From positions 1 to 51,642 of the forward strand of contig JAQCBR010000013.1 in assembly GCA_027621295.1 (NCBI GenBank): a stretch of DNA of 51,642 nt, in the 5' to 3' direction. Numbering within the stretch: position 1 is the stretch's first letter; every line of letters begins with the position of its first letter. Positions 626 to 24,620 of the stretch are shown here, in pieces. The position numbers and the translations under genes were made by a program. The notes under the pieces are model-generated. The model was not told the DNA's origin. It was given only the letters and a program-made list of their open reading frames with translations, and did no database searches. This stretch comes from Planctomycetota bacterium (GTDB taxonomy: Bacteria; Planctomycetota; UBA1135; UBA2386).

Positions 626-627
626 CC

Positions 628-8795: not shown

Positions 8796-10051
8796 CCCGA
8801 AGGCTCGACGACGCGGCGTCCGTCCTCGATGAGGCGACTCGGGTAGAGGACGACGCGGTCTCCTGGTTCGAGGCCGGCCAGGATCTCCGCATGCTGTGCG
8901 TCGAGCAGCCCGAGCTCGACCGACGTGATCCGACTACGCCCGTCGGAGTCGAGGCGGTGGACGGCCCAGTCGCCCCGATGGCGGAAGAGGCTCGAGGCCG
9001 GCGCGCGAACCGCTCGATCGCTGGAGCGGTCCAGCTCGACCGCGATCTCGAGGTGGTAGCCGTCCCCGAGCCGGGGCCAATCGCCGACAGGCGCCAGTAG
9101 GACGTCGACGCGCTGCTCCTCGATGCCGAGCGCAGAGATGACTGTGTCCGCGCGTGGTTCGACCATCAGCACCTGTGCGTCCAGCGGGAGATCGACGTCT
9201 GCGCCGAACCCGGGTGCGGTTCCGATCCGCGCAGGCATGCCTGCGCGGAAGCGGAGCGCGTCGTGGCTCAGGAACGCAGCGCGGATCTCGATCTCGCGCG
9301 GGTCCCCGACCTCCAGCAACGCCTGTCCCGCCGTGACGGGTCGGCCTGACTCCTCGAACACCCGGAGCACGCGGCCGTCCACAGGCGCAACGAGCGCCAG
9401 ATCACGGCCCGGCTCCGGAGCAGGATCAGGCCCGTTCTCGAGCGTTCGGCCCTCCTCGAGCTCGAGTTCGGCGGCGCGTCCGAGGTGCTGCGCAGCGTCG
9501 AGCTCTGCCTCCTTCGCGTCGCGGGCGCGCTCGGCGATCGTCGCGGCTGCGTGCAATCGCTCGACCTCCTCGTCGGCCGCGATGTTGGCGGCCGCCATCT
9601 GCTCGGCGCGATGGAGCTCTCGCCACGCGAGCGTGCAGCGTGCCTCGGCTTCACCGAGCGCTGCGCGCGCAGCGTCGATGCGTGCGACCGCGGCCGCGAG
9701 TTCGGCCTCGAGCACGGCACGGCGTCTTCGATCGACGAAGACCGGGTCGGCGGGCATGAGGACCGCGACCACCGTCGCGCCGCCGTGCACGATGTCTCCC
9801 ACGCGGAGGCGGGGCCTCAGCAGCACGCCGTCCCGCGGCGCGTGCACCGTGTACCGATCCCGGACCCGCGTCCGACCTTCTTCACGCACGGTGACCGAGA
9901 CCGGCCCGCGGTCCACCGCGCCGATCTCGGACAGGATCGGCTCCGGCTCGAGCAGCTCGACGATGCCGAGAGTGGCCAGCGCGACCACGCCGAGCAGAGC
10001 CATGGCTCGCAGGTAGGGCCGTCTGCGGCGCTTCGGGACAGATGTGTTCAT
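8789..10051 (-). CDS. HlyD/MacA-like membrane-fusion (periplasmic adaptor) protein
   Basis: 420 aa from ATG 10051, which overlaps the upstream permease stop as ATGA. Arg/Lys-rich start and one N-terminal membrane anchor (about 12-35), then a beta/lipoyl half (YTVHAPRDGVLLRPRLRVGD), a long alpha-helical coiled-coil hairpin rich in Ala/Glu (about 105-215), the second lipoyl half (ALVAPVDGRVLRVFEESG) and beta-barrel C-terminus. This is the standard adaptor design linking an inner-membrane pump to an outer-membrane channel. With the permease and ATPase it makes a MacAB/DevBCA-type ABC exporter or lipoprotein/envelope transporter. No TolC-like gene is in the window. Substrate unknown. Confidence 0.85.
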   Translation of the reverse strand: MNTSVPKRRRRPYLRAMALLGVVALATLGIVELLEPEPILSEIGAVDRGPVSVTVREEGRTRVRDRYTVHAPRDGVLLRPRLRVGDIVHGGATVVAVLMPADPVFVDRRRRAVLEAELAAAVARIDAARAALGEAEARCTLAWRELHRAEQMAAANIAADEEVERLHAAATIAERARDAKEAELDAAQHLGRAAELELEEGRTLENGPDPAPEPGRDLALVAPVDGRVLRVFEESGRPVTAGQALLEVGDPREIEIRAAFLSHDALRFRAGMPARIGTAPGFGADVDLPLDAQVLMVEPRADTVISALGIEEQRVDVLLAPVGDWPRLGDGYHLEIAVELDRSSDRAVRAPASSLFRHRGDWAVHRLDSDGRSRITSVELGLLDAQHAEILAGLEPGDRVVLYPSRLIEDGRRVVEPSGR

Positions 10052-12417
10052 GACAGCTCCGCGTCGAGGATCTCCAGCGGGTCGAGTCGCTTCAGCGCAC
10101 GCCACGCGACGACCGCTGCGAGCAGGGCAGCGGAGAGGGTGGTCGCGACGGCGAGTGCCGTGCACCAAGGAGCGACGACCGCAGGAATGCGGATCTCCTC
10201 GGTGGCGAGGCTCTCGACCAGCGCCTTGGCGCCGGCGTGCCCGAGGAAGACCCCGAGCGGCAGCGAGGCGGCGAGCACGATCACCTGCTCACCGAGCAGC
10301 AGCGTGAGCAGCTCCGCGTCGCGGAACCCGAGGAACCGGAGCGTGGCGAGTTCACGGGATCGTTCGCCGAACTGCACGCGGGCGAAGCTGTGCAGCACGC
10401 CGAACGCCATCACGAGCGACGCGCCGACCTGGATCACGAGCGAAGTCCCGACGTGCTGGTCGAGGATCTCGTCGAAGGAGCGGATGCCGTGTTCACGCTC
10501 CCAGGAGCCGACGAAGACGGGGGCGTCACGGATCGCCTCTCGGAGCTCGGGCAGAAGGTCCTGGTCCGGCACGCGGAGCAGCGCTGTGTCGAACGTCGGT
10601 CCCTCACCCAGGCTGCGTCCGAGGGACTCGAGTTCCATCGTCGCGCCGCGACCGAGGTACGTGGTCGAGACGCGCGTGACGTCCGCGCGGAACTGTGTCC
10701 GTCGCCGTTCCCGGACTTCCACGACCACTGCGTCACCCTCTCGGACGTCGAGCTCCGCGGCCAGGGAAGCGTCCAGCTCGATGCCCGTCGTCGCGCGGGG
10801 AGCGATTCCGGAGCCCGGGTCGATGGACACGGACAGCGTCGCGTCCCTCGGCACGCCGACGAGCGTCGTGTCCAGCACCTTGCTCCCCGCGCGAATACGG
10901 ACCGGAACCGTCCGGCGGGGCTCAGCCGCGATCACTCCGGGCAGTCTCTCGACCGCGTGCCCAGCGTTCGTTTCCCGTGGACTCATCAGCGGGACCACCA
11001 CGTCCGCGCGGGAGACGAAGCCGAACTGCAGCTCGAGTGCCGAGCGGATCGCGCCATACGCGAAGCTGCCGAGGATCACGAGCGCCGCCGCCGCGGCCGT
11101 GCCCAGGGTTGCTGCCGCCGCCCGGCCGGGCCGCCGCAGCAGGCTCCTCGCCACACTTCGGAGCTGCGGTGACAGCCGTGCGAGGGCTCCGGTGCGTTCG
11201 AGCATCGTGGCTCGGAATCGGGTGGGCGCTGGCGGTCTCATTCCCTCGGCGGGGGACAGCGCAGCGATCCGGCGCAGGGCGAGCGCCGTTCCGGATGCGG
11301 CGGCCGCTGCCGTGACGCCGAGCGCGAGGAGCACTTCGCTGGCCGGCAGGTGCAGCTCGAGTGCTGGGAGCCGGAAGTAGTCGAGGTAGAGCGTGCAGAG
11401 TGCGTTCCCGATGCCGATGGCGAGCGGCAGTCCGACGAGGAAGCCGACTCCGGTGGCAGCGATCCCCAGCATCGCGAAGTGCCGGGCGAGGTCCCGGACG
11501 CGGTATCCGAGCGCCAGCAGGGCCGCGGCCTGGGCGCGCTGGCTCGCCACAGCGCGTCCGAGAACGATGTGGAGCAGGAACGCGGCGACCGCCAGGAAGC
11601 CGAGGGGGACGATCGTGCCGAAGACCCGGAGCTGCTCGAGCTCGCTGCGGACGAACGCCTCGCTCGGCTGGTCCTCACGGCGGACCGCTGCCACGCATCC
11701 GAAGCGCTCGAGCGCTGCCTCCACTGCCCCCGCCTGTGCGGGCGTGGAACCCGGCTTGGCACAGGCGAGCAGCACCTCGTTGCACGCCCCGCGGAGGTCG
11801 GCCGCGTGCTGCACGGTCTCGAACCCGGCGAAGACCACGCCGAAGCGGGCGTCGTCCGGCAACGCGCTCCCGGGCGGTGCGACGAACGTGAACTCGGGAG
11901 ACAGTGCGGTACCGACCACGCGGTAGGCGGTGCGCCGGCCTTCGATCGTCAGGTCCAGCGTGCCGCCGGGCTCGAGCTGGTGCGCTCGGGCGAACGGCTC
12001 GTGCGCCAAGACCTCGTGACGGCTCCTGGGCAGGCGTCCGCTGCGGAGGAGGACCGCGTTCAGGCCGCGCTCGGGCTCACGGGGCAGCGAGACCAGCGAC
12101 ACTGTCACAGGAGCGTCGCTGTTCGCGATCTCCGCGCGTCCTCCGATGACCACGCGTGGCTCCACTTCGCGCACGCCGGCGATCGAGCGGAGTCCGTCCG
12201 CCACCCAGAGCGGCGCGCGGACGAACCGCGCGGTGAGGTCTGCGAGGCGCTGACTCTCGACTTCCAGGGCGCGTGCCCGGGCCAGGCTTCCATGGGTGGC
12301 GCGGAGACCGGTGTGCACCGCCACGCCCACCGCGACGACCGCGGCCACGGCGGCCAGCTGTCCGGCCGACAGCCGCACGTCTCGCCAGGTCTTGCGCCAG
12401 AGCGATCGCATCGGCAC
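10048..12417 (-). CDS. FtsX-like ABC transporter permease
   Basis: 789 aa. GTG 12417 follows the ATPase TAG with no gap; ATG 12411 is an equally possible start two codons later. Double-FtsX layout: TM1 near residues 20-40 (QLAAVAAVVAVGVAVHTGL), a large periplasmic region, three TMs near 270-400, a second TM/periplasmic unit and a final three-TM FtsX block (about 640-780) with the VQFGERSRELATLRFLGF coupling segment. This is the DevC/MacB/LolCE-like 'mechanotransmission' permease type, probably exporting or extracting a substrate at the cytoplasmic membrane rather than importing. Middle gene of a three-gene operon. Confidence 0.88.
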   Translation of the reverse strand: MPMRSLWRKTWRDVRLSAGQLAAVAAVVAVGVAVHTGLRATHGSLARARALEVESQRLADLTARFVRAPLWVADGLRSIAGVREVEPRVVIGGRAEIANSDAPVTVSLVSLPREPERGLNAVLLRSGRLPRSRHEVLAHEPFARAHQLEPGGTLDLTIEGRRTAYRVVGTALSPEFTFVAPPGSALPDDARFGVVFAGFETVQHAADLRGACNEVLLACAKPGSTPAQAGAVEAALERFGCVAAVRREDQPSEAFVRSELEQLRVFGTIVPLGFLAVAAFLLHIVLGRAVASQRAQAAALLALGYRVRDLARHFAMLGIAATGVGFLVGLPLAIGIGNALCTLYLDYFRLPALELHLPASEVLLALGVTAAAAASGTALALRRIAALSPAEGMRPPAPTRFRATMLERTGALARLSPQLRSVARSLLRRPGRAAAATLGTAAAAALVILGSFAYGAIRSALELQFGFVSRADVVVPLMSPRETNAGHAVERLPGVIAAEPRRTVPVRIRAGSKVLDTTLVGVPRDATLSVSIDPGSGIAPRATTGIELDASLAAELDVREGDAVVVEVRERRRTQFRADVTRVSTTYLGRGATMELESLGRSLGEGPTFDTALLRVPDQDLLPELREAIRDAPVFVGSWEREHGIRSFDEILDQHVGTSLVIQVGASLVMAFGVLHSFARVQFGERSRELATLRFLGFRDAELLTLLLGEQVIVLAASLPLGVFLGHAGAKALVESLATEEIRIPAVVAPWCTALAVATTLSAALLAAVVAWRALKRLDPLEILDAELS

Positions 12418-13170
12418 CTACCAGGAGACCTCTGCGGGCGCGCGGCGCTCGGCGTGGACGTCGATCGCACGGACCGCGCCGTCGGCCAGATGAACGACGC
12501 GGTCCGCGAGCGCGGCGATCGCGGTGTTGTGCGTGATCAGCACGGTGCTGGTGGCGAGCTCCTCCTGTGTGCGCACGATTGCGGCGAGGACCTGACGCCC
12601 GGTGGCCACGTCGAGCGATCCGGTCGGTTCGTCGCAGAGCAGCAGCGTCGGCCGCTTCGCAATCGCTCGTGCGATCGCGACGCGCTGCTGCTCGCCGCCC
12701 GACAGCTGGGCCGGGAAGTGGTCCATCCGCGCCTCGAGCCCGACGAGGGCGAGCGCCTCCTCGGGCGTCATCGGCGACTCGGCGATGTCGGTGACGAGCT
12801 GCACGTTCTCGCGCGCGGTGAGGCTCGGCAGCAGGTTGTAGAACTGGAACACGAAGCCCACGTGCTCCCGCCGGAATCGGGTCCGCTCGGCGGGCGCGGC
12901 GCGCGCGAGATCCCGGCCGCCGAACCAGACCGATCCTGTGGTCGGCAGATCGAGACAGCCGAGCACGTTCATCAGCGTGGACTTGCCGCTGCCGGACGGG
13001 CCCAGAAGCACCGTGCACTCGTCGCGTCTCAGCTCGAGGTCGACGCCGCGCAGCGCGCGCACGAGGACCTCGCCCATCTGGTAGCTGCGCGTCACGCCCT
13101 CGAGTCGGACCACCGGCTCGCCGGCGCGATGCTCGAGCGGGTCGAGTGTCGCCTGGGTTTCCACGGCCAT
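12418..13170 (-). CDS. MacB/LolD-type ABC transporter ATPase
   Basis: 250 aa from ATG 13170. Walker [11 protein letters not shown]-loop in [12 protein letters not shown], signature [14 protein letters not shown], Walker [13 protein letters not shown] and H-switch ITHN are all present, so it should be active. The FNLLPSLTA(R)EN type is characteristic of ATPases that pair with FtsX permeases. First gene of the exporter operon; its TAG stop touches the permease start. The start is well supported because the ABC domain begins within the first 25 residues. Confidence 0.93.
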
Positions 13171-13278
13171 CGCACGCCCGATCAGGCGGGCGGCGCGTGC
13201 CCCCGACCGGTGCGGTGTCGGAACGATCCGGCGCTCGGCGGCCTTTCGGCGCGGTCAGCGGGCGAGCGGGGCAATGAG

Positions 13279-13296
13279 CCCGGGCGGCTGTCCGGG
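13279..13296 (-). terminator. Weak hairpin downstream of GNAT gene
   Basis: Arms CCCGG (13279-13283) and CCGGG (13292-13296) sit 5 bp beyond the GNAT stop on the minus strand. The stem is only 5 bp and no T-run follows. Confidence 0.3.
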
Positions 13297-13301
13297 AATC
13301 G

Positions 13302-14279
13302 TCAGAAGCGGAGCACGAATGCTGACTGCGTCTCCGACCCCTCGGCCCAGCGCCGCATGTAGGGCATCTCCGGCCCCATGTCGAAACGCTCGACGCCGTC
13401 TTCGCACAGCCACAGCAGCATCTGGTCCTGGAGCAGGTTTCCGATCGACAGGTCGAACCAGGCCTCGTCGAAGCTGAACTGCTGGCCGCGGTAGACCGTC
13501 CCGGCGATGCCGCCGAACGCGAAGCCGACGTCTTGGTCACGGGCCCGCGCGAAGACGGCGCGCGCCGCGCCGGTGGCCGCGAGCCGCTCGAGCAGGAGCA
13601 GGTAGAAGTCGTGCGAGTCTCGACCTCCGATGCCGTGGCCCTCTCGACCCTTCCAGCTCCGCCTGTCGACCTCGAGCATCCGTCGGTAGGCAGCCTGGGC
13701 TTCCGCCGCGGTCTCGGGCGCACAGCGCTCGAACGTCACGCCCTGCGAGCTCGCCCGACGTCGGCACCGCCCCGCGTCGCGCCGGAAGTTCGCGCTGCGC
13801 CGCGACCAGTAGCCGTCGTAGCCGCCGCGGAGCGACGCCTGGACCATCTTGGTGTCGGAGATGTGCACGACGGCCTGGTCGCGGGTGCGGCTGACGAGAT
13901 CGAGCAACATCCACATCGCATCGGGGTCCGAGCGTTGGAGGCCGCTGATCAGGACCGAGGACACGATCCGATGGAGCTCCCGCACGAGGTCGAGCAGCAG
14001 CTCCTCGGCGCCGACGCCGAGCAGCGGGCAGCCGAACATCCAGCCCCTGTCGAGCGGGCCGAGGAACGGCGCATATCCCTCGTCCTGGTGCAGCGCGAAC
14101 GCGGCGATGCGCTCGTCGTCGCCGCGGATGTAGAGACGAGCGTCGGCTTGGAACGCCTCGTGACAGCTCCTCTGCCATGCGGGCCCACTCGCCAGCGGAT
14201 CCGCGCTCCGGGATTCCTGGGCCAGGCGCGCCCAGCGCGCGTCCTCGTCCGTGGCTCCGCTGTGCATGGGCTCTCCCAT
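13302..14279 (-). CDS. GNAT acyltransferase, BioF2/FemAB-like
   Basis: 325 aa from ATG 14279. The layout is a degenerate N-terminal GNAT lobe (AFQADARLYIRGDDERIAAFALH) and a C-terminal acetyltransferase lobe (ARAVFARARDQDVGFAFGGIAG, then WFDLSIGNLLQDQMLLWLCEDGVERFDMG), as in the Acetyltransf_6 family. Members of this family transfer acyl or aminoacyl groups in envelope polysaccharide and peptidoglycan-type synthesis, but the substrate here is unknown. No signal peptide, so cytoplasmic. It is divergent from the 98-aa gene; a TATGCT -10 candidate lies 11 nt before the ATG. Confidence 0.8.
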   Translation of the reverse strand: MGEPMHSGATDEDARWARLAQESRSADPLASGPAWQRSCHEAFQADARLYIRGDDERIAAFALHQDEGYAPFLGPLDRGWMFGCPLLGVGAEELLLDLVRELHRIVSSVLISGLQRSDPDAMWMLLDLVSRTRDQAVVHISDTKMVQASLRGGYDGYWSRRSANFRRDAGRCRRRASSQGVTFERCAPETAAEAQAAYRRMLEVDRRSWKGREGHGIGGRDSHDFYLLLLERLAATGAARAVFARARDQDVGFAFGGIAGTVYRGQQFSFDEAWFDLSIGNLLQDQMLLWLCEDGVERFDMGPEMPYMRRWAEGSETQSAFVLRF

Positions 14280-14290
14280 CGCGTCGCGCG

Positions 14291-14296
14291 AGCATA
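14291..14296 (-). promoter_or_regulatory. Candidate -10 element TATGCT for GNAT gene
   Basis: On the minus strand TATGCT ends 11 nt before ATG 14279. The same 11-nt spacing occurs with TACGCT before ATG 30741. This predicts a leader of about 5 nt. Confidence 0.5.
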
Positions 14297-14349
14297 GCCA
14301 ACGCCCGAGCCGACGAAGACGAGCGCGGTCCGGGCGTGCCGGGGTTGGT

Positions 14350-14355
14350 TACACT
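14350..14355 (+). promoter_or_regulatory. Candidate leaderless -10 element TACACT
   Basis: TACACT ends exactly 6 nt before GTG 14362 and no Shine-Dalgarno is present, so transcription should begin at or next to the start codon. Confidence 0.6.
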
Positions 14356-14361
14356 GCCGCC

Positions 14362-14658
14362 GTGGACATCGAGACGTTCGAAGCGAGCCTCACCCGGTCG
14401 GAGCCACCGCGTGGGCTGACGCCCGCGCTCTGCGGCGTCTGGCACGCGCTCCGCGGCTCGTGGGATGCGGCGCACGACGCGGTGCAGTCGGATGACCCGG
14501 CCTGCTCCTGGGTCCACGCGGCGCTGCACCGGGAGGAGGGCGATCTCGGCAACGCCGGCTACTGGTACCGGCTCGCCCGGCGCCCGATCGGGCGGGGTGA
14601 GATGGCCGCGGAGTACCGGGCGATCGCGGCCGAGCTTCTCGAGCGCGGAGCGGACTGA
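14362..14658 (+). CDS. Conserved small protein of unknown function
   Basis: 98 aa from GTG 14362, chosen because TACACT lies 6 nt upstream and the N-terminal MDIETFEASL is a plausible helix. The core (GVWHALRGSWDAAHDAVQ, WVHAALHREEGDLGNAGYWYRLA) is the pattern of a small all-helical TPR-like family that I recognise from planctomycetes and proteobacteria but that has no assigned function. Cytoplasmic by lack of signal or membrane segments. It is divergent from the GNAT gene with an 82-bp shared promoter region. Confidence 0.78.
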   Translation: MDIETFEASLTRSEPPRGLTPALCGVWHALRGSWDAAHDAVQSDDPACSWVHAALHREEGDLGNAGYWYRLARRPIGRGEMAAEYRAIAAELLERGAD

Positions 14659-14718
14659 CCGCGCCTCAGGTCGGCGGAGAGCCCGTGGAGCGCTCGCCCC
14701 CGGGCCCTCGCACCCCGA

Positions 14719-16047
14719 TCAGAAGTTCATCTGCACCTGGATGCCCAGGCGCTGCTCGTCCTGCACGTCGTCGTAGGGCGCGACGCGCGTGTTGGTGCGA
14801 CGGAACGTGTGCGAGAAGAACAGCGTGAACTCGACCGCGCGCTCCGGCGAGTACTCGAAGCCGAAGTCGAGCTCGTTCACGTGCGCCTGCGGCGCGTTGG
14901 TCCCGAACTTCCGACCGCCGTCGAAGTAGTTCCAGCGTACGAAGGGGAAGACCGTCAGGTTGCCTTCGTTGTAGCGGTAGTTCGCCTGGATGTAGCCGCC
15001 CTGCAGCGACTCGCTCGTGATGCTCGTGCCGTCGTCGCTGAGCGTCGGGCCACGGCCCCAGTTCCATTCAGCCTCGAGGCCGATCGGCTGCGGGTACCAG
15101 ACTGCGGTGACGCCGATGCGCTCGTCGCGCACGCCGTCCGGGTTGTCGTACGTCGGCGTGACGTCCTGACCTCCGATCTCCACTTCGCTGGTCTTGGGCA
15201 CGTAGCGTCCCTGGTAGCCCATGACGCCGAGCTCGAAGAACTGGCCGCTGTCGAGCTTGAACGGGTAGTTCAGGCGCATGACCCAGTGGAGCTCGCCGTT
15301 CTTGTCCGAGCGGTTCAGGCCCTGGCCGGAGTAGGGGCCGAAGCCGAACACGCCGTAGTCCCCCGAGCCCTTCAGGCCGGTGGACGTGAGCTCGCGGTAG
15401 CGGTCACGTGCCTCGCGAGGTGCCCAGTAGAAGAACGCGCCGAAGTCACGCTCGCCCTCAGCCGCCGAGTTGATGCCGTCGGGCCGCTCGAGCGGAGCGC
15501 GGTTCGAGCTCGACTGCATGTTGACCCAGCCGAACGGGACCTTCGACACACCGGGCCGGATGCGAAACTCCTTCTTGTCGTCGAAGGCGATGTCCGCGTA
15601 GTAGTCGCGCATCTGCACCGAGTAGTCGGGCGCTCCCGTCGACGCGGCGAAGTCGGACTGCACGTAGACGTAGACGCGCTCGCTGACGTCGCCGAACAGG
15701 ATCACGCGGCCGCGACGGAGCACGAAGGTCTCGGCCTCGCTCGCGCTCTTGTCCGCCGGCACGAACAGGTCAGGGTCGTTGTCGTCGTCGAAGAGGCTCG
15801 TGTAGCGGAACTGGCCGTAGCCGCGGAACCGGAGCTTGTCGTACCAGCGGTTCTGCCCGGCCGAGTTGGCCTGGAGGGTTGCACGCAGCTCCTCGAGTTC
15901 GGAGTCGCGCTCCTCGAGGCGGGACTCCAGTCGCTGGAGACGCTGCTCGAGGGACAGTCCCTGGGGGTCTTGGGGTGAGGACTCCTGGGCCTGCAGTTGC
16001 AGACAGACCAGGAGCGGGAAAGCGGTGCAGAGAGGGAGGTTCTTCAC
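14719..16047 (-). CDS. Phosphate-selective porin O/P-like outer-membrane protein
   Basis: 442 aa from GTG 16047, which has a GGAG ribosome site 6 nt upstream and gives a short signal peptide (KNLPLCTAFPLLVCLQLQAQ). A coiled coil (about 30-65, LEQRLQRLESRLEERDSELE) precedes a beta-barrel: alternating strands such as RFRGYGQFRYTSLF and ETFVLRRGRVILFGDV, and a C-terminal Phe (QVQMNF) as in outer-membrane proteins. This is the OprO/OprP architecture: a periplasmic coiled coil that trimerises plus an anion-selective barrel. PHO-box-like repeats upstream support a role in phosphate or polyphosphate uptake. The family also contains unspecific porins, so the ion is inferred. Confidence 0.85.
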   Translation of the reverse strand: MKNLPLCTAFPLLVCLQLQAQESSPQDPQGLSLEQRLQRLESRLEERDSELEELRATLQANSAGQNRWYDKLRFRGYGQFRYTSLFDDDNDPDLFVPADKSASEAETFVLRRGRVILFGDVSERVYVYVQSDFAASTGAPDYSVQMRDYYADIAFDDKKEFRIRPGVSKVPFGWVNMQSSSNRAPLERPDGINSAAEGERDFGAFFYWAPREARDRYRELTSTGLKGSGDYGVFGFGPYSGQGLNRSDKNGELHWVMRLNYPFKLDSGQFFELGVMGYQGRYVPKTSEVEIGGQDVTPTYDNPDGVRDERIGVTAVWYPQPIGLEAEWNWGRGPTLSDDGTSITSESLQGGYIQANYRYNEGNLTVFPFVRWNYFDGGRKFGTNAPQAHVNELDFGFEYSPERAVEFTLFFSHTFRRTNTRVAPYDDVQDEQRLGIQVQMNF

Positions 16048-16057
16048 GGGACACTCC

Positions 16058-16078
16058 GAATCCGGTGACGGCGGATCC
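16058..16078 (-). promoter_or_regulatory. 5' leader hairpin A of porin (loop shared with hairpin B)
   Basis: Stem 16058-16064 pairs with 16072-16078 (one mismatch, 16059/16077) around the 7-nt loop 16065-16071, GTGACGG on the plus strand. The base of the stem touches the porin GGAG ribosome site, so folding could affect initiation. Confidence 0.5.
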
Positions 16079-16094
16079 AAAGGGGAGGCGCCCA

Positions 16095-16115
16095 GGCTTC
16101 GGTGACGGCGAAGCC
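16095..16115 (-). promoter_or_regulatory. 5' leader hairpin B of porin
   Basis: Perfect 7-bp stem GGCTTCG / CGAAGCC around the loop GTGACGG, identical to that of hairpin A, including the two closing base pairs, while the outer stems differ in sequence. Confidence 0.5.
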
Positions 16116-16125
16116 AAGGCTGTGA

Positions 16126-16184
16126 ATCTGATGAAGCGAGGGTGAAGTTTCGGTGTGTAAAGACAGGATCAAGGGAGGGTGAAG
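16126..16184 (-). promoter_or_regulatory. PHO-box-like array of 11-bp direct repeats
   Basis: Read on the minus strand from 16184 down, five units start with CTTCACC, CTTGATC, CTTTACA, then after a 4-nt gap CTTCACC and CTTCATC. Within each block the units repeat every 11 bp, with a 4-nt spacer after each 7-mer. PhoB/PhoP-type response regulators bind 11-bp direct repeats of this kind (GTTCACC units in Streptomyces, CTGTCAT in enterics). It lies about 80 bp upstream of the porin start. Confidence 0.6.
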
Positions 16185-16235
16185 ATGGTCGGCAGGTCCT
16201 CCTCGCGCACCTCGCCCCTCGGCACCTACTTGCCC

Positions 16236-16252
16236 GCAACAGTCGCTGTTGC
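16236..16252. promoter_or_regulatory. Perfect inverted repeat, possible operator
   Basis: GCAACAG and CTGTTGC, 7-bp arms with a 3-bp centre, in the middle of the divergent region. It fits a site for a dimeric regulator. No regulator is identified. Confidence 0.4.
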
Positions 16253-16461
16253 AGCGTCTTGTGGCGCTTCGACCGCCTTGATCCGGTCTTGGCCGAGATG
16301 GCGTGAGCCCTGATCTTTTCTTCATGTGGCGCCGAGGTCCGCGCTGCGGCGGCCCGCATTCGCCGGAGGCGCGGTGCGCGGCTGGGCGTTTCTCCCGCCC
16401 CCGTCCCGACATCGCGATCGGGTCGGCTTCAGCCGGTCCTGGCCCCCGGCGCCGATCCAGC

Positions 16462-16467
16462 GATCAT
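16462..16467 (+). promoter_or_regulatory. Weak candidate -10 GATCAT before selenoprotein gene
   Basis: GATCAT ends 6 nt before ATG 16474, the same spacing as the TACACT elements. It matches TAnnnT only at A2 and T6. No Shine-Dalgarno is visible. Confidence 0.35.
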
Positions 16468-16473
16468 GCGCGG

Positions 16474-16812
16474 ATGATCACCATCGAACGCGCCTACATG
16501 CGCAAGGGTTGAACGTCGTGCACCAAGGCGGGGAGTTTCCTCGCCGGCAAGGCCGAGATCGCCGAGACCGTCGACGCCAAGAAGGTCCCCGTCGGGCCCG
16601 ATGACCTCACGCCCTGGTTCCGGGGCCGCAAGCGCTTGCTCGTCGCCAAGGGCAAGAAGTGCGAGGAGTTCGCGCTCGCGAAGCTGAACGTCGAGGAGCG
16701 CGCCGCAAAGGTGCTCGGCCCGTCAGGCAAGCTTCGGGCGCCGACGCTGCTGGTCGGTGACGCGGTCGTCGTGGGCTTCCACGACGACGCCTACCGCGCG
16801 ATCTTCGGCTGA
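16474..16812 (+). CDS. Candidate selenoprotein, Spx/ArsC-like thioredoxin fold (in-frame TGA = Sec13)
   Basis: 112 residues if TGA 16510-16512 is read as selenocysteine. The N-terminus MITIERAYMRKG is followed by U13-T-S-C16-T-K-A, which matches the C-T-S-C-R-K-A redox motif of Spx/ArsC-like proteins with U in place of the first Cys. Downstream, KKCEEFALAKL and RAPTLLVGDAVVVGFHDDAY carry the thioredoxin-fold cis-Pro (P90) and the final strand-helix. Codon use after the TGA is fully coding-like up to TGA 16810-16812. A hairpin 14 nt after the TGA meets bacterial SECIS rules. Probably a cytoplasmic thiol/selenol reductase. Conventional calling would report only a 12-codon stub. Alternative: a pseudogene with TGC changed to TGA. 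Confidence 0.82.
16527..16545 (+). promoter_or_regulatory. Bacterial SECIS-like hairpin
   Basis: Stem GGCGGGG (16527-16533) and CCTCGCC (16539-16545), 7 pairs including one G-U, loop AGUUU. The loop begins 21 nt after the UGA and has G at its second position, as in known bacterial SECIS elements recognised by SelB. Confidence 0.75.
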
Positions 16813-16839
16813 CCTCGGGTCCGTGAAGGGCCCGAGGTC
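16811..16839. terminator. Strong hairpin between convergent genes
   Basis: 12-bp stem: nine perfect pairs (GACCTCGGG / CCCGAGGTC), one G-U and two G-C pairs, with loop GTGAA. It begins inside the selenoprotein stop codon and can serve the convergent propeller gene too. Confidence 0.7.
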
Positions 16840-16852
16840 GACGGCGACTGCG

Positions 16853-18292
16853 TCAGTCGTCGACCCGCACCGTGGCCGCGTTCGTCCACGTGATGCGGCC
16901 GGTCACGCCGGACAGCCCCTGGAAGGCGCCGACCGCACCCAGCAGGTTCGGGTTGTTCGGCAGCACGAGGCTCGTCCGGTGGATCGCGGTCGGCCAGATC
17001 GGCGCCAGGGTGAACAGCGCCGGGTTGCCGAGCGTCATGCTCGAGTCGATGCCCGGAATCGTCACCGGGCTCCCGCCCGGCGTGCCGATCAGGAGCGCGA
17101 CCAGGTCGCCGGGCTGTTCGAGCCAGAGGTCCATCTCGAGAGTGCCACCCGGTGCGACCGTGTCCGGGGCGGTGATGCCCGGCGTGTAGACGAAGCCGTC
17201 GACGAGTTCGGCGGGGGCGATCGCGTTGTCGACCGACACCGTCACCGGTCCCGGCACGCCCGCCGGCGCCGTGCAGCGGATCGTCGTGTCGTCGACGAGC
17301 GTCACCTGGGTCGCGGGAACGCCGCCGAAGCGCACTCCGGTCACCGAGCTGTTCGCGAAGAAGCGCCCGCGGATCTCGACCGTGCCCGGCCCGCGCCATG
17401 TTCCGGCCGGAGGCAGGACCTCATCGACGTTGGGGCCGAGTTCGGGGACGAACGCCACGTACACGCCGCTCGTGGAGGACCCGGGAATCACCGACTGCAC
17501 GCGGTTGAGGTTCGTGTCGGTCAGCAGCACGTCGCCGAAGCGGCTGCCGGCGACGATGCGGCCATCCGGAGCCGCCTCGACGTCGTAGAGGTTGCTGCCG
17601 CCGGTCTGGAGCTGGGCGAGCGCCGTCTGTGCGTCCGGCGTGTAGCGGGTGATCGTCCCGTTCCAGTCGGCGATCACGAGCTCGCCGTTCGGCAGGCTGG
17701 TGATGCCGCGCGAGTCGAACAGGCCGGGCAACACGTAGGTCGCCGTGACCTGCAGCGTCTCGGGGTCGATCACGCGGATGCCGGACCGCGGGGAGCCGTC
17801 CTCGAGCGCGAAGACCCGGCCGTCGAGGCCGGCGCTGATCTCACCCACACCCCGCCCGGGGATCTGGACCGCGGTCGACGTGAAGCTGGGCAGCTCGATG
17901 CGCAGCGACTTCGTGAACAGGTAGGAGCCGGTCAGCGTCAGGTCCCCGTCGCTGACGTTGCCGAGGAATGCGGCGACCGGGTGCTGCTCCCAGGTCCCGG
18001 CGATCGGGTCGTAGGTGGCGATCGAGCCCGGGTTGAGGAGTCCGGTGATCAGCACGTGCGCGCGGCCCGTCACGTCGACGACCACGTCGACGACGTCGTA
18101 GCGGCCGCCGCCCGGGGGCAGCGGAACCTGGAGGACGCGGATCACCTGGAGGGTCTGGTCGAGCTCGTAGAGCCGGCCGGCCGTCGAGGCGAGGATGTTG
18201 CCCGGGGTGAACGCCTGGGCCCGCGCGTCGGCGACGGTGCAGGCGAGGGCGGTCAGCGCGGCGAGGGCGAGGGATAGGCGGGGCGTCGGCAT
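16853..18292 (-). CDS. Secreted beta-propeller protein with IPT/TIG domain
   Basis: 479 aa from ATG 18292 with signal peptide ending near ADARAQ. Residues about 30-290 contain repeated blade-like segments (GRLYELDQTLQVIRVL, NGELVIADWNGTITRYTPD, DGRIVAGSRFGDVLLTD) of a YVTN/NHL-type propeller. Residues about 293-370 form an IPT/TIG immunoglobulin-like domain (VEIRGRFFANSSVTGVRFGG). The last 100 residues are another beta domain. Proteins like this are abundant in marine planctomycetes, and their function is not known. It is convergent with the selenoprotein gene and divergent from the mod operon. Confidence 0.75.
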   Translation of the reverse strand: MPTPRLSLALAALTALACTVADARAQAFTPGNILASTAGRLYELDQTLQVIRVLQVPLPPGGGRYDVVDVVVDVTGRAHVLITGLLNPGSIATYDPIAGTWEQHPVAAFLGNVSDGDLTLTGSYLFTKSLRIELPSFTSTAVQIPGRGVGEISAGLDGRVFALEDGSPRSGIRVIDPETLQVTATYVLPGLFDSRGITSLPNGELVIADWNGTITRYTPDAQTALAQLQTGGSNLYDVEAAPDGRIVAGSRFGDVLLTDTNLNRVQSVIPGSSTSGVYVAFVPELGPNVDEVLPPAGTWRGPGTVEIRGRFFANSSVTGVRFGGVPATQVTLVDDTTIRCTAPAGVPGPVTVSVDNAIAPAELVDGFVYTPGITAPDTVAPGGTLEMDLWLEQPGDLVALLIGTPGGSPVTIPGIDSSMTLGNPALFTLAPIWPTAIHRTSLVLPNNPNLLGAVGAFQGLSGVTGRITWTNAATVRVDD

Positions 18293-18322
18293 GGAAGGAG
18301 GGACCGGTCGGGGTACGGGCCG

Positions 18323-18339
18323 GGCAGGTTAGCCCTGCC
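18323..18339 (-). promoter_or_regulatory. Dyad overlapping TAACCT in the propeller/mod intergenic region
   Basis: GGCAGG and CCTGCC arms with a 5-bp centre. On the minus strand it contains TAACCT, a possible -10 for the propeller gene, so it could be an operator. Confidence 0.3.
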
Positions 18340-18360
18340 ACGCCCCGGCGACCACGTCCG

Positions 18361-18379
18361 GATCCGTAGACGGCGGATC
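18361..18379 (+). promoter_or_regulatory. Dyad upstream of mod operon
   Basis: GATCCG (18361-18366) and CGGATC (18374-18379) with a 7-bp centre, about 90 bp before the regulator start. A candidate operator for molybdate autoregulation, which is inference only. Confidence 0.3.
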
Positions 18380-18471
18380 TGCTCCGGCTCGTTTCGTGCG
18401 GTCAGAATGCTGCACAGACAAGGATTCAGGTGGTAGAAAGCCGCATACGCGCGCTTCGCGAATCTCTGCCC

Positions 18472-18909
18472 ATGCCCAGCTACCGCCTCGGACAGGCCGC
18501 CCGCATCCTCGGAGTCAGCGTCGACACCGTCCGCCGCCACGTCGACAGGGGCGAGCTGGCCGCAGCGCGGACCCCAGGAGGTCACCGCCTCGTCGACGGT
18601 GCCGACCTCGCCCGCTTCGTCGAGGCGCTCGACCGGCAGGCCGAGGCCGAGGGTTCGTCGTCCGCGCGCAACCACCTGCTCGGCATCGTCACCCGCGTCG
18701 TCAAGGACCGGGTCGCCGCCCAGGTCGAGCTGCGCTGCGGGCCGTTCCGGATCGTGTCGCTGATCACCGCCGAGTCGGTCGATGCGCTCGGCATCGAGCC
18801 CGGGATGCTGATGAACGCGGTGGTCAAGGCGACGAACGTCGTCGTCGAGCGGGCCGAGGTGCCGGCCCCGGTCGCGCCGCACGGGGACGAAGTGGAGGCC
18901 GGGGCTTGA
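18472..18909 (+). CDS. MerR-type HTH protein with Mop/TOBE molybdate-binding domain
   Basis: 145 aa from ATG 18472; GTG 18430 with AAGGA 5 nt upstream is a real alternative giving 14 more residues. Residues 1-52 are a MerR/excisionase-like helix-turn-helix (YRLGQAARILGVSVDTVRRH, TPGGHRLV). Residues 63-128 are a Mop/TOBE domain (NHLLGIVTRVVKDRVAAQVEL, GIEPGMLMNAVVKATNVVV) that binds molybdate or tungstate oxyanions. This is a ModE-like design with a different DNA-binding module, and the position in front of modABC supports a molybdate-responsive regulator. Its TGA overlaps the modA start (TTGA), suggesting translational coupling. Confidence 0.85.
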   Translation: MPSYRLGQAARILGVSVDTVRRHVDRGELAAARTPGGHRLVDGADLARFVEALDRQAEAEGSSSARNHLLGIVTRVVKDRVAAQVELRCGPFRIVSLITAESVDALGIEPGMLMNAVVKATNVVVERAEVPAPVAPHGDEVEAGA

Positions 18910-19655
18910 GCCTCTGCCGTGCGATCGGGGTCGTGGTCCTCGTGCTGACGCTCGGCTGCGTGCCGCGCGGCAGCGCCGACGGGCGGGTCCTCGTCTTCGC
19001 CGCGGCGTCGCTCGGCGAAGCTTTCACGGAGATCGCGGCTCGCTTCGAGGCTGAGCATCCGGACCTCGCGGTCGACCTGCACCTCGCGGGCACGTCGCGG
19101 CTCGCGTTCCAGATCGGTGAGGGCGCGCCTGCGGACGTCTTCGCGTCGGCCGACGCCGAGAACATGGACCGGGTCGTCGGCTGCAGCGCGGTGGTCGACG
19201 GACCACACGTGTTCGCGCAGAACGAGCTGGCGATCGTGGTCCGGCGCGGCAACCCGCGGCACGTGGACGGTCTCGCCGACTTCGCGCGGAGCGACCTGCG
19301 CCTCGCGATCTGCGGTCCCGAGGTGCCTGCGGGGAGATACGCGCGGGAAGCGCTCGGCCGGGCGGGCGTCGAAGCGCGGCCCGTCTCGGACGAACCGCAC
19401 GTGAAGGCCGTGGTCGCCAAGGTCAGTCTCGGCGAGGTGGATGCCGGCCTCGTCTACCGCACCGACGTCGCCGCTGCCGGGGACGGCGTCGAGGGAATCG
19501 ACCTCCCGGACGCCCAACAGGTCGTCGCGGTCTACCCGATCGCAGCGCTCGGAGCGGGGGACGCAAGGCCCGCCGCGGCGCGGGCGTTCGTCGCATTCGT
19601 GCTCGGGGCGGAGGGGCGCGCCGTGCTCACCGAGCGGGGATTCCTGCTGCCGTGA
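18906..19655 (+). CDS. modA: Molybdate ABC transporter substrate-binding lipoprotein ModA
   Basis: 249 aa from TTG 18906, overlapping the previous stop. Only this start gives the signal sequence ending in lipobox LTLGC, so it is a membrane-anchored lipoprotein. LVFAAASLGEAFTEIAARFE is the classic ModA opening, followed by GEGAPADVFASAD, ELAIVVRRGNP and the AGLVYRTDV segment. It binds molybdate (or tungstate) outside the membrane and delivers it to ModB. GTG of modB overlaps its TGA. Confidence 0.93.
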   Translation: MSLCRAIGVVVLVLTLGCVPRGSADGRVLVFAAASLGEAFTEIAARFEAEHPDLAVDLHLAGTSRLAFQIGEGAPADVFASADAENMDRVVGCSAVVDGPHVFAQNELAIVVRRGNPRHVDGLADFARSDLRLAICGPEVPAGRYAREALGRAGVEARPVSDEPHVKAVVAKVSLGEVDAGLVYRTDVAAAGDGVEGIDLPDAQQVVAVYPIAALGAGDARPAAARAFVAFVLGAEGRAVLTERGFLLP

Positions 19656-20443
19656 CCGAGAGATCCCAGCCGCTGCCGCGCGGAGTCCGGGCACTGGCCG
19701 GCATCGCCGCCGTGCTCCTCCTGCTGCCCCTGATCGGGCTCTGGTCCCGCGCGCCGTGGAGCGAGCTCACAGCGCAGGCGACGCAGCCGGAGGTCCTCGA
19801 CGCGCTCTGGCTGTCGCTCGGCTGTTCGGCTGCGGCCACGGTCTGCACGTTCGTCCTCGGACTGCCGCTCGCGATCTGGATGGACGGCCCGCCCTCCGGA
19901 CTTCGGACCGCGGTGCGCGTCCTGGTCACGCTGCCGATGGTGCTGCCGCCAGTCGTCGGCGGCGTCGCGCTGCTGTTCGCGTTCGGTCGGAACGGCCTCG
20001 TCGGCGCGCCGCTGGCCGACTGGTTCGGCGTCTCGCTGCCGTTCACCGAGGCGGGCGTCGTGCTCGCCGAGGCGTACATCGCGTTGCCGTTCTTCGTGCT
20101 CGCGGCCGAGGGAGGGCTTCGCGCGATGGACCGCCGCTACGTCGACGCCGCCGCGACGCTCGGCGCGTCGCCGTGGCGCACGCTCGTGTCGGTCACGCTG
20201 CCGATGATCGCGCCTTCGCTCCGGGCAGGTCTCCTGCTCGCCTGGGCGCGCGCGCTCGGCGAGTTCGGCGCGACGATCACGTTCGCCGGCAACCTCGCGG
20301 GCCGGACCCGCACGATGCCGCTCGAGGTCTACGCCGCGCTCGAGACGAGCCCCGAGGCGGCGAGCGTGCTCAGCGTGCTCCTCGTCCTCTTCTCCGGCGG
20401 CGTGCTGTTCACGCTGCGCCACCACTGGTTCCCGGTCCGATGA
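19652..20443 (+). CDS. modB: Molybdate ABC transporter permease ModB
   Basis: 263 aa from GTG 19652, overlapping the modA stop by 4 bp. About six membrane helices; conserved ABC-importer permease loop with EARTIGAS-like YVDAAATLGASPWRTLVSVTLP and GEFGATITFAGN, typical of ModB/CysU-type permeases. It forms the membrane channel with ModC. ATG of modC overlaps its TGA. Confidence 0.93.
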   Translation: MTERSQPLPRGVRALAGIAAVLLLLPLIGLWSRAPWSELTAQATQPEVLDALWLSLGCSAAATVCTFVLGLPLAIWMDGPPSGLRTAVRVLVTLPMVLPPVVGGVALLFAFGRNGLVGAPLADWFGVSLPFTEAGVVLAEAYIALPFFVLAAEGGLRAMDRRYVDAAATLGASPWRTLVSVTLPMIAPSLRAGLLLAWARALGEFGATITFAGNLAGRTRTMPLEVYAALETSPEAASVLSVLLVLFSGGVLFTLRHHWFPVR

Positions 20444-21489
20444 GACTCCGCGCCGACATCGAACGGAGGATCGGGACGCTCGATCTCCGCGTGGCCCTCG
20501 ACCTCGGCCCGGACGAGACCGTGGCGCTCGTCGGGCCGAACGGGGCCGGCAAGACCACGCTGCTGCGGGTGCTGGCTGGCCTGCTCGGGGTCGACCGTGG
20601 GAAGGTGCAGCTCGGGGACACGGTCCTCGACGCCGGTCCCGGGGCTGCCTTCGTTCCGCCGCAGGAGCGTCGGGTCGGCTACGTGTTCCAGGACCACCTG
20701 CTGTTCCCCGGCATGAGCGTCCTCGACAACGTCGCGTTCGGACCGAGGAGCCGCAGAGCGACGCGTCGTGACGCGCGAAGCAGCGCGCAGACCTGGCTCG
20801 AGCGGGTCGGGCTCGGCGACCTCGCGGCCGCGCGTCCGGCCGCGCTGTCGGGCGGACAGGCCCAACGCATCGCACTCGCCCGCGCGCTCGCGGCCGAGCC
20901 GCGGATGCTGCTGCTCGACGAGCCGCTCGCCGCCGTCGACGCGACTGCACGCACGACGCTCCGCCGCGAACTCAGGGAGCTGCTCGCCGCGTTCGACGGC
21001 GTCCGCGTCCTCGTCGTCCATTCGATCGACGACGCGCTGGCGCTCGCCGATCGGCTGCTCGTGCTGGAGGACGGCCGCATCGTCCAGTCCGGCACGCTGC
21101 CCGAGCTCGTCGCCCGCCCCGCCTCGCGCTACGTCGCCGACCTCGTCGGCATCAACGGGTTCCTGGGGCACTGCACCGCGGGCGTCGTCGACGTCGCGGG
21201 CGCGAAGCTCGTCGTCGCGCACGCCGAGGACGGTCCGGTCCACGTGACCTTCCATCCGCGCGCGGTCTCGGTGTTCCGCGAGCGCCCGTCGGGCTCCCCG
21301 CGCAACGTCTGGTCCGCGCCGATCGTGTCGGTGGAGCCCGCGCTCGAACGCGTCCGACTGCAGGTCGGAGGCCCACTGCCGATCGTCGCGGAGATCACGC
21401 CCCGCGCGGCAGCGGAGCTCAGGCTCGCCGAAGGCGGCGACGTCTGGATCGCGGTGAAGGCGACCGAGATCGCGGTGTCGACCGCGTAG
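20440..21489 (+). CDS. modC: Molybdate ABC transporter ATPase ModC
   Basis: 349 aa from ATG 20440. Walker A GPNGAGKTT near residue 32, signature LSGGQAQRIALARA, Walker B LLLDEPLAAVD and switch HSIDDA are intact. A C-terminal TOBE/Mop-like domain (about 285-345, WSAPIVSVEPALERVRLQV) is typical of ModC and may bind oxyanion for feedback. Last gene of the mod operon; a stem-loop overlaps its TAG. Confidence 0.93.
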   Translation: MRLRADIERRIGTLDLRVALDLGPDETVALVGPNGAGKTTLLRVLAGLLGVDRGKVQLGDTVLDAGPGAAFVPPQERRVGYVFQDHLLFPGMSVLDNVAFGPRSRRATRRDARSSAQTWLERVGLGDLAAARPAALSGGQAQRIALARALAAEPRMLLLDEPLAAVDATARTTLRRELRELLAAFDGVRVLVVHSIDDALALADRLLVLEDGRIVQSGTLPELVARPASRYVADLVGINGFLGHCTAGVVDVAGAKLVVAHAEDGPVHVTFHPRAVSVFRERPSGSPRNVWSAPIVSVEPALERVRLQVGGPLPIVAEITPRAAAELRLAEGGDVWIAVKATEIAVSTA

Positions 21490-21495
21490 CGGTCG
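21479..21495 (+). terminator. Hairpin over modC stop codon
   Basis: CGACCGC and GCGGTCG arms (7 bp) with loop GTA; the TAG stop lies in loop and stem. No T-run. Confidence 0.45.
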
Positions 21496-21511
21496 CGCGC
21501 CGTTCCTCCGG

Positions 21512-22939
21512 TCACTGGATCCGCATGAACTCCTGCAGCGCGACCACTTCGGCCTCCAGCTTCCGCTCGGTCTCCCGACGCGGTGCGAGCTGCCTCTCGA
21601 TCGACTCGATGTGTTGCCGGAGTGACGAGATGTTCAGCGAGCGGTTGATGCGGTTCGAGCGCGCCTCGGCTGCGAGGTCGCGCTTGCTCTGCTCCAGCGC
21701 AGCCAGCCGTTCGGCCGTGCCGCTCTTGTGTTGCAGGAGTTCACGGCGCGCCGACCTGAGTCGCTTCTCGATGATCGGGAGTGGCGACACGAGATAGAGA
21801 GTCTCGCCGGCGCGCATGCGCACCACGTAGTCCCGAACCCGCTTTCGAAGCGCGCCGAGCTGCGAGGAGGTTGCCCCCCGCGCCATGCGAGAGAGGTCCG
21901 AGAGAACCGCCGAGCTGTCGTAGTCGCGCGGATCGGTGCGCATCTCGTCGAGCTCCGCTGCGGTCGTCATCTCCAGGAAGGTCTCGAAGTGCTCGATGGC
22001 CTTCTGCCGGTCGAAGACCTGGCCGCCGGGTGACGCATGGGCTTCGCCGAGGAAGTACTGGAGCGTCGGGTTGTCCGGTTGGAGTGCGAGCATCTCCTTC
22101 AGCAGCGGCACCATCTTCCCGGGCTCGCGTCGCTCCCGGTGGTAGCCGTGCTTCTCCATCAGGTCCTGGAACTTCGAGTCGACGCGCTCGTCCGACATGC
22201 GGCGGGCGGTGTTGCCGACGATCAGGTTCAGGCGCTTGCCGCCCTCCAGGTCGAGGATGTAGCCGAAGACCTGCAGGCGGAGCGCGCGGGCCGGATCGTC
22301 GCCCTGCGACCCGAGCATCTGGAAGAGCACGTCGAGTCGGTCCCAGACCTCTCCGGTCCTGTCCGCGGCGACCAGGTCGTCGAAGCGGGACAGGAAGGTC
22401 TGGAACGCTTCGATCGCGCGCCGCGCGTCGAACCCTTCGTGGTCCGAGCCGTAGAACTCTCCGGCCAAGTAGTCGACGGTGGGGTCGCCGGGGATCTCAC
22501 GCGCGAGCCTCTCGAGCAGCGGTCCGATCGCCTCCGGCTCGCCGCGCTCGCGGTGGATCTGGATCTGGTCGAGCAGGTCCATCGGCGCCGTGCTCGCGGC
22601 GATGATCGGTCCACCCCGGTGGCGCTGGATCAGCGCTCGAAGCGCGGCGCGTTCCAGTCCGTCGGGCAGCTGTCCAGCCAGCTGTTCGCCAGCTTCGACC
22701 GCTTCTTCGTGCTCTCCCTCGGCGAGCAGGAGGTCGAAGCGAGCCCGCAGCACGGTGAGCGATGGGTTCGGCGCATTCGCCATCGAACGCAGGACTCGCA
22801 GCGCGGGCTCGATCCGTCCACCCTGGACGAGCAGCGTCACCTGCCGGAGTGCTCTCTCGGAGTCCTGGCCAGCGGCCGGGATGACGAAGACTGCGGCTGC
22901 TCCCAGAACGGGCGGCAGGAAACGGGTTCCGAGCGCCAT
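21512..22939 (-). CDS. Exported TPR-like protein with C-terminal coiled coil, function unknown
   Basis: 475 aa from ATG 22939, preceded by GAGGAGAG (22946-22953), one of the few clear ribosome sites in the window. Signal peptide ends near VIPAAGQ. Helical repeats with TPR/Sel1 character fill about 25-370 (RVLRSMANAPNPSLTVLRARF, AIEHFETFLEMTTAAELDEM). The end is a basic-acidic coiled coil (about 400-470, AERLAALEQSKRDLAAEARS). Probably periplasmic. No enzyme motif is seen. Confidence 0.65.
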   Translation of the reverse strand: MALGTRFLPPVLGAAAVFVIPAAGQDSERALRQVTLLVQGGRIEPALRVLRSMANAPNPSLTVLRARFDLLLAEGEHEEAVEAGEQLAGQLPDGLERAALRALIQRHRGGPIIAASTAPMDLLDQIQIHRERGEPEAIGPLLERLAREIPGDPTVDYLAGEFYGSDHEGFDARRAIEAFQTFLSRFDDLVAADRTGEVWDRLDVLFQMLGSQGDDPARALRLQVFGYILDLEGGKRLNLIVGNTARRMSDERVDSKFQDLMEKHGYHRERREPGKMVPLLKEMLALQPDNPTLQYFLGEAHASPGGQVFDRQKAIEHFETFLEMTTAAELDEMRTDPRDYDSSAVLSDLSRMARGATSSQLGALRKRVRDYVVRMRAGETLYLVSPLPIIEKRLRSARRELLQHKSGTAERLAALEQSKRDLAAEARSNRINRSLNISSLRQHIESIERQLAPRRETERKLEAEVVALQEFMRIQ

Positions 22940-23099
22940 GGATGACTCTCCTCGATGCGGCGGACCGCCAGCGCTCGGGGCGCTCCGATCCAAGCCTCTC
23001 TTCCTCCGAAAACGAGCGTCCCATGGTGCAACCAGTCTGCAGATGCGTCCAGCACACCTGAGTCTGCGCCTCGGGAGCGATCCGGAGGCGGACGGTCGC

Positions 23100-23105
23100 T
23101 ACCGT
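23100..23105 (+). promoter_or_regulatory. Candidate leaderless -10 TACCGT
   Basis: Ends 6 nt before ATG 23112 of the sulfatase; no Shine-Dalgarno. Confidence 0.5.
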
Positions 23106-23111
23106 GCCCGG

Positions 23112-24620
23112 ATGCTCGCTCTCGGATTCCTGCTCGCTGCGCTCGCTCCCCAGAACGTCGTGCGCCCCCCGAACATCGTCGTCGTCCTTGCCGACGATCT
23201 GGGATACGGCGACGTGACGGTGAACAACGCGGAGTCGCTGATCCCGACGCCGCGCCTCGAGGAGCTGGCGGCGGGCGGGCTCCGGTGCACGGACGCGCAC
23301 TCGCCGGACGCGGTGTGCACGCCGACGCGCTACGGGATCCTGACCGGTCGCTACGCGTGGCGGACCTGGCTCAAGCGCAACGTGGTGGGCGGCTACACGC
23401 CGCCGCTGATCGAGACCGACCGACCGACGCTGCCGAAGACGCTTACCGCCGCCGGCTACCGCACCGGCTGCTTCGGCAAGTGGCACCTGGGCCTCGGCTG
23501 GACGCGGTCGAACGGGTTCGTCGGCACCGCGGACAACGCGCAGCAGAACTTCCGAGGCACTTGGCAGGACGGGAAGCCGGAGGACGGGATGAACGTCGAC
23601 TTCACGGCGCCGATCCAGGGTGGACCTGTCGCGCTCGGCTTCGACACGGCGTTCTTCACCGCTGCCTGCCCGACGATCGACGGACCGTTCACCTACATCC
23701 GCGACGACCGCGTGACCGCGATCCCGGACCACATGATCCGGGTGAACCGCGATGCCGGGCCGGACCTCTTCCCGCGTCCGGGCTGGATCGCGCCGGGCTT
23801 CGTGCTCGAGGACGTGGACCCGACGTTCACGCGCGAGGCGATCGCGTTCATGGAACGGAGCGTCGCGGACGACGCCGAGAAGCCGTTCTTCGTCTACCTC
23901 GCGCTGTCGTCGCCGCACGCGCCGTGGCTCCCGCCGACGTTCGCGCAGGGGCGCAGCGAGGAGGGGCCTCGCGGCGACCTCGTCTGGCTCGCCGACTGGT
24001 GCCTCGGCCAGGTGATGGACGCGCTCGACCGCCTCGGCGTGGCCGACGACACGCTCGTCGTCTTCACCTCGGACAACGGGCCGCGCCACGGCGCGAACGA
24101 GCACCGTTCGGCCGGGGAGCTCCGCGGCTACAAGTCGCACATCTGGGAGGGCGGCCACCGCGTGCCCTTCGTCGCGCGCTGGCCAGGCCATGTGCCGCCG
24201 GGCACGACGAGCGCCGAGCCGATCGAGCTGACCGACCTCTACGCGACCTGCGCGGCTCTCGCGGGCACGGCTCTTCCCGACGGCGCAGCGCCCGACAGCT
24301 ACGACGTGTCCACAGCTCTGCTCGGCTCCCGCGCCACCGATGCCCCACCGATCCGCGAGGCCGTCGTCTCCCACTCGATGCACGGCGTCTTCGCGATCCG
24401 CCAGGGCCGCTACAAGCTGATCGAGGGCACGAAGACCTCCGGCGGCTGGGTCGAGCCGTCCGGCCGCCCCGCCGAGCCCGGCGCGCCGGGCCAGCTCTAC
24501 GACCTGACCGCCGACCTCGGCGAGCAGCGGGACCTCTTCGAAGAGAGGCCGGAAGTCGTCGCGAAGCTGCAGGCTCTGCTCGACCGCTACCGGGAGCAGG
24601 GCTTCACGGTCGCGCGCTGA
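23112..24620 (+). CDS. Sulfatase (arylsulfatase-type, family S1)
   Basis: 502 aa from ATG 23112, which gives a short export signal (MLALGFLLAALAPQ) and is positioned 6 nt after a TACCGT. The frame is open far upstream, but that part is antisense to the previous gene. Metal-binding D28-D29 (VVLADDLGYG), the formylglycine motif C69-T-P-T-R, FGKWHLG, and TSDNGPRHG near residue 320 are all present, so it should be active after Cys-to-formylglycine maturation. It hydrolyses a sulfate ester outside the cytoplasm, probably on a polysaccharide. It is convergent with the ABC importer permease; its stop codon lies in a shared hairpin. Confidence 0.92.
   Translation: MLALGFLLAALAPQNVVRPPNIVVVLADDLGYGDVTVNNAESLIPTPRLEELAAGGLRCTDAHSPDAVCTPTRYGILTGRYAWRTWLKRNVVGGYTPPLIETDRPTLPKTLTAAGYRTGCFGKWHLGLGWTRSNGFVGTADNAQQNFRGTWQDGKPEDGMNVDFTAPIQGGPVALGFDTAFFTAACPTIDGPFTYIRDDRVTAIPDHMIRVNRDAGPDLFPRPGWIAPGFVLEDVDPTFTREAIAFMERSVADDAEKPFFVYLALSSPHAPWLPPTFAQGRSEEGPRGDLVWLADWCLGQVMDALDRLGVADDTLVVFTSDNGPRHGANEHRSAGELRGYKSHIWEGGHRVPFVARWPGHVPPGTTSAEPIELTDLYATCAALAGTALPDGAAPDSYDVSTALLGSRATDAPPIREAVVSHSMHGVFAIRQGRYKLIEGTKTSGGWVEPSGRPAEPGAPGQLYDLTADLGEQRDLFEERPEVVAKLQALLDRYREQGFTVAR

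Follow-up and report, generated by a model that had tools for sequence, protein, structure and literature searches.

An ArsC-like selenoprotein gene of the NF041106 family, with a predicted selenocysteine at codon 13, in a Planctomycetota genome

The window, that is, the whole stretch of 51,642 nucleotides analyzed here (contig JAQCBR010000013.1 of the Planctomycetota assembly GCA_027621295.1), very probably carries a selenoprotein gene of the NF041106 family, in which the TGA at codon 13 is read as selenocysteine (Sec) by SelA, SelB, SelD, and tRNA-Sec; a hairpin shortly after the TGA is the likely SECIS. With this gene, a widespread family of selenoproteins with a putative redox role gains a divergent planctomycete member. 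The features discussed below are as follows:

16474..16812, plus strand: ArsC-like selenoprotein gene (NF041106 family), 112 residues, predicted Sec at residue 13
16510..16512, plus strand: in-frame TGA at codon 13, predicted selenocysteine (U of UTSC), with TGA conserved in relatives
16519..16521, plus strand: TGC, Cys16, predicted resolving cysteine, invariant in an alignment of 26 sequences
16527..16545, plus strand: bacterial SECIS-like hairpin, with an 8-bp stem (16527-16534/16538-16545) and a GUU loop (16535-16537)
16741..16743, plus strand: Pro90 of the invariant LRAP, predicted cis-Pro, invariant in the same alignment
14719-16359, minus strand: neighboring ORF, O/P porin gene
16853-18292, minus strand: neighboring ORF, TIG-domain gene

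Reading Frame and Family Membership

The frame opens with ATG at 16474-16476, meets the internal TGA at 16510-16512, stays open through codons 14-112, and closes on the stop TGA at 16810-16812, which yields a 112-residue product with the motif UTSC; the sequence thus agrees with the earlier note in its start, its TGA at codon 13, the 99 codons that follow, and its stop. The same note held that a conventional gene caller would stay silent here for want of a later start, and indeed no in-frame Met occurs among codons 14-112, and the listing of ORFs of at least 80 amino acids contains none in this frame at 16474..16812. Ordinary gene calling would break the gene at codon 13. As a bare pattern, TGA-N6-TGC is not enriched above chance in the window, with 22 matches against 16.9 expected and 12 of 100 shuffles reaching 22. 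The UTSC frame stands out from chance because of homology, namely, its NF041106 score and an alignment to 25 TGA-bearing relatives that holds both upstream and downstream of the TGA.

With U written as C, the product matches the NCBIfam model NF041106, "ArsC family (seleno)protein", over its whole length at about 90.6 bits (cut-off 85), and it carries at its N-terminal redox site, as UTSC, the UxxC/CxxC motif that characterizes the family. In the six-frame genome search, the window copy reaches only 82.9 bits, below the same cut-off, because the TGA is counted there as a stop. All 26 members of the alignment match NF041106 at an E-value of 0.001 or better. Neither the Spx/MgsR model TIGR01617 (13.0 bits, cut-off 75.05) nor the Pfam ArsC model PF03960 (16.6 bits, gathering score 24) recognizes the product at its threshold. 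The earlier description of the protein as Spx/ArsC-like consequently holds as a resemblance, seen in the PDB profile and Foldseek searches described below, and fails as membership in Spx/MgsR or Pfam ArsC, for which the scores are below the cut-offs. Judged by sequence, the window gene is a member of a catalogued family, a sound find of an ordinary kind.

Selenocysteine Machinery

The machinery expected alongside a bacterial selenoprotein is complete in the same genome: selB (312.5 bits), selA (472.6 bits) and selD (350.4 bits), the latter two adjacent on contig C134, and a tRNA-Sec (80.1 bits) with the anticodon tca. The genome search for selA, selB, selC, and selD proposed in the earlier note is thereby answered, with all four present. 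Another above-cut-off match to the tRNA-Sec model (L010, 50.8 bits) was rejected, as ARAGORN assigns it to tRNA-Ser. The selD match (G000:C134:5161-6090) itself contains one in-frame TGA (GGT TGA GCC GCC AAG), so the SelD of this genome is probably a second selenoprotein.

Codon 13 Across Relatives

The genome search covered 61 genomes (the source genome and 60 relatives) at a threshold of E 0.001 for NF041106. Matches of E 0.001 or better occur in 30 genomes and exceed the cut-off in 25, and every one of the 25 above-cut-off relatives has a single TGA at the same codon. In the remaining 31 of the 61 no match was obtained, which makes the distribution of the family across this lineage patchy. 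Eight further matches among the 61 genomes lack the TGA and score 22.9-31.1 bits, far below the cut-off; the four of these that were read (L047-L050) look like separate ArsC/Spx-like proteins. In the alignment of 26 sequences, columns 13 (U) and 16 (C) and the run L87-R88-A89-P90 are invariant.

A genome_contigs scan confirmed at least 569 relatives, the best 80 of which were kept for codon reading. Codon 13 is TGA in 77 of these 80 and TGT or TGC in three (L106, L138, and L147). The best 80 of at least 569 loci span Planctomycetota, Deltaproteobacteria (Desulfuromonas and others), Gammaproteobacteria, Acidobacteria, Myxococcota, and others. Among them, the closest relative is L072, from a Planctomycetota metagenome-assembled genome, 66-67% identical to the window protein; over the stretch compared, its gene is identical to L045 of genome G013, which belongs to the same family as the source genome of the window. 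Both the TGA and a counterpart of the hairpin are present in this closest relative. The earlier note had staked its reading on conservation of Cys or Sec at codon 13, and these counts bear it out (TGA in 25 of 25; 77 TGA and 3 TGT/TGC among the best 80 of at least 569). Together with the machinery found in the genome, this conservation leaves its selenoprotein reading well supported. As a separate observation, one of the 77 TGA loci (L103) contains an extra in-frame TAG eight positions past the TGA, which may reflect assembly error, decay, or other decoding.

At the protein level, 6790 relatives were found among the 7996 candidates scored, and 114 of the 120 matches listed have CxxC within their first 25 residues; these are not counted as Cys forms because U may be entered as C in the database. 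Searches of plasmids and of phages returned no match to the gene.

SECIS-Like Hairpin

The hairpin begins 14 nt, and its loop 22 nt, after the TGA, and the nearest relative forms seven of its eight pairs, one of which is changed from G-U to A-U. A control with uniform codon use was replaced by codon-usage and within-gene permutation controls, which are less favorable to the window. Under codon-usage resampling, 13 of 1000 sequences fold as well as the window hairpin alone, or 8 of 1000 if one of the first two loop bases must be G; under synonymous permutation within the gene, 250 of 5000 do so, and dinucleotide shuffles give z = -0.87. Taken alone, the window hairpin provides moderate support for a SECIS, while across the family the case for a SECIS directly downstream of the TGA, as expected of a selenoprotein, is stronger.

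Over 103 Sec genes (including two duplicates), the mean permutation rank is 0.19, where 0.5 would be chance, and the rank is below 0.05 in 33 of the 103. After the duplicates were dropped (L072 = L045 and L098 = L038), the best hairpins of the 101 distinct Sec genes average -8.2 kcal/mol, against an average of -4.5 and a best of -5.1 kcal/mol after synonymous codons had been permuted within each gene (100 rounds). Of the 101, 61 have a stem of 6 bp or more whose loop starts 24-27 nt from the T of the TGA; the 100 permutation rounds gave 11.4 such genes on average and never more than 18. By this single-stem criterion, which is crude, 40 of the 101 have no hairpin there. Because the genes are related and the 24-27 nt range was chosen after earlier per-gene hairpin ranks had been seen, this statistic is not an independent-sample probability. 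Even so read, the position and strength of the family hairpin far exceed those of synonymous-codon permutations.

The loop contains GUU in 57 of the 61 position-matching genes, perhaps partly on account of the encoded residues, and the Cys forms have a mean hairpin rank of 0.47, near chance, in a sample of three that is too few. It is conceivable, if not quite probable, that the family has a near-fixed SECIS, a tight hairpin whose loop contains GUU and lies 21-24 nt past the TGA, which planctomycete, deltaproteobacterial, gammaproteobacterial, and acidobacterial members share and the Cys forms (n = 3) have lost. If true, this element would amount to a compact, naturally standardized Sec-insertion cassette. 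The window contains no Rfam match at gathering scores.

Alternative Readings

A Cys codon might have been recorded as TGA through sequencing or assembly error, or mutated to TGA in a decayed gene, and the draft state of the genome (279 contigs, 89.68% complete), the TGT/TGC codons at three of the best 80 of at least 569 loci, and the extra TAG at L103 would fit such an account. The same TGA nevertheless recurs at this codon in many assemblies, in all 25 relatives and in 77 of those best 80 loci, and it is shared with the closest relative along with the hairpin, in a genome that possesses the Sec machinery; error or decay is hence highly improbable. Equally improbable is that the TGA is read as another amino acid, such as Trp under code 4 or 25. 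Two of the 20 homologues fetched (P0002 and P0003), both close ones, do show Trp at this position instead of the Sec or Cys of their relatives, which is probably the work of a gene caller using a TGA=Trp code. Against Trp decoding, TGA is the stop codon of the window gene and of 21 of the 26 family members whose genes were read, so that TGA would need to serve as both sense and stop; moreover, the genome has tRNA-Sec(tca) with selA, selB, and selD, and the sense codons found at the site in DNA specify Cys.

The nature of the product, as distinct from its decoding as a selenoprotein, invites another comparison. An AlphaFold2 model with Cys replacing Sec was obtained at a pLDDT of 94.0 and a pTM of 0.85. 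In a PDB profile search, the protein matches 2m46 (E 2.7e-7) and solved Spx chains (E 2.2e-6), and Foldseek places Spx, or proteins annotated as such, at the top of its ranking. The matches to Spx, together with weak TIGR01617 matches in 6 of the 26 family members, would suit a transcription regulator of the Spx type, working by a Se-S switch, instead of an oxidoreductase. The window product falls short of the TIGR01617 cut-off as stated above, however, and the best Foldseek E-value is only 1.3e-3 at a TM of about 0.5, so a regulatory role of this kind is considered unlikely.

Predicted Function and Mechanism

On the basis of its motif and predicted fold, the selenoprotein is likely a two-residue Sec/Cys thiol-disulfide oxidoreductase, and arsenate reduction is a possible candidate activity. 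The confident model of the Cys13 form and the ArsC/Spx-like chains that lead the PDB profile search fit the family assignment. Pro90 of LRAP is presumably the cis-Pro of the thioredoxin fold. In the proposed mechanism, SelB and Sec-tRNA would bind the hairpin at 16527-16545 and insert Sec at codon 13, and the product would fold as a small thioredoxin-fold oxidoreductase. The Sec13 selenolate would then attack an oxidized (disulfide-like) substrate, Cys16 would resolve the intermediate as a selenenylsulfide, and the latter would be reduced by cellular thiols or thioredoxin.

Gene Neighborhood

Both adjoining ORFs lie on the minus strand, so there is no evident plus-strand operon partner adjacent to the selenoprotein gene. 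For 20 of the 25 relatives above the cut-off, flanking sequence was clustered with positions 9001-24000 of the window. A cluster drawn from eight sources proved to cover the antisense of the selenoprotein gene itself, and the neighbors recurring in three relatives each (e.g., a stretch in L060, L061, and L062) include none common to the window. The window itself contributes ABC-transporter matches (about 12421-13254 and 19405-21486) and two matches to L063 (window about 22473-23999). Overall, the gene context in these 20 relatives gave no function.

Elsewhere in the window, an extracellular solute-binding protein (SBP_bac_11) is followed by an ABC ATPase with a TOBE domain (18396-21489, plus strand), a pair that we take to resemble a molybdate-type transporter. 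ARAGORN also reports a tRNA-Gly at 3609-3696 on the plus strand, which lies inside a long ORF (391-4113), is without Rfam confirmation at gathering scores, and may be false.

Comparison with Known Systems

The earlier suggestion that such a protein may be undescribed in this lineage does not stand at the level of the family, which is catalogued as NF041106 and appears in a table row of a 2026 review as "Arsenate reductase-like protein" with a UxxC motif (PMC13188914). A 2022 review gives the same name with COG1393 and UxxC, credited to the 2008 Global Ocean Sampling (GOS) paper (PMC9312934), and that selenoproteome in turn describes a UxxC "Arsenate reductase 2" under cd03032 (PMC2398784). Among the titles listed by a literature search combining Planctomycetes and selenoproteins, none is on this protein. 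Only the family-wide statistic on SECIS position goes slightly beyond the catalogue entry.

Among solved structures, 2m46, 1z3e, and 3gfk (Spx/ArsC-like) share profile similarity with the window protein over nearly its whole length, from which it differs in having a predicted Sec in place of the first Cys and in scoring below the Spx/MgsR and Pfam ArsC cut-offs. The GOS "Arsenate reductase 2" is likewise ArsC-like with UxxC and was placed in cd03032; by its description in PMC2398784, it is probably the same family as NF041106. The closest known system is NF041106 (ArsC_rel_Se_1) itself, with which the window gene shares a whole-length match above the cut-off, the UxxC motif, and Sec or Cys at the same site in relatives, and within which it is divergent, its identity to the 25 aligned relatives being 36-67%.
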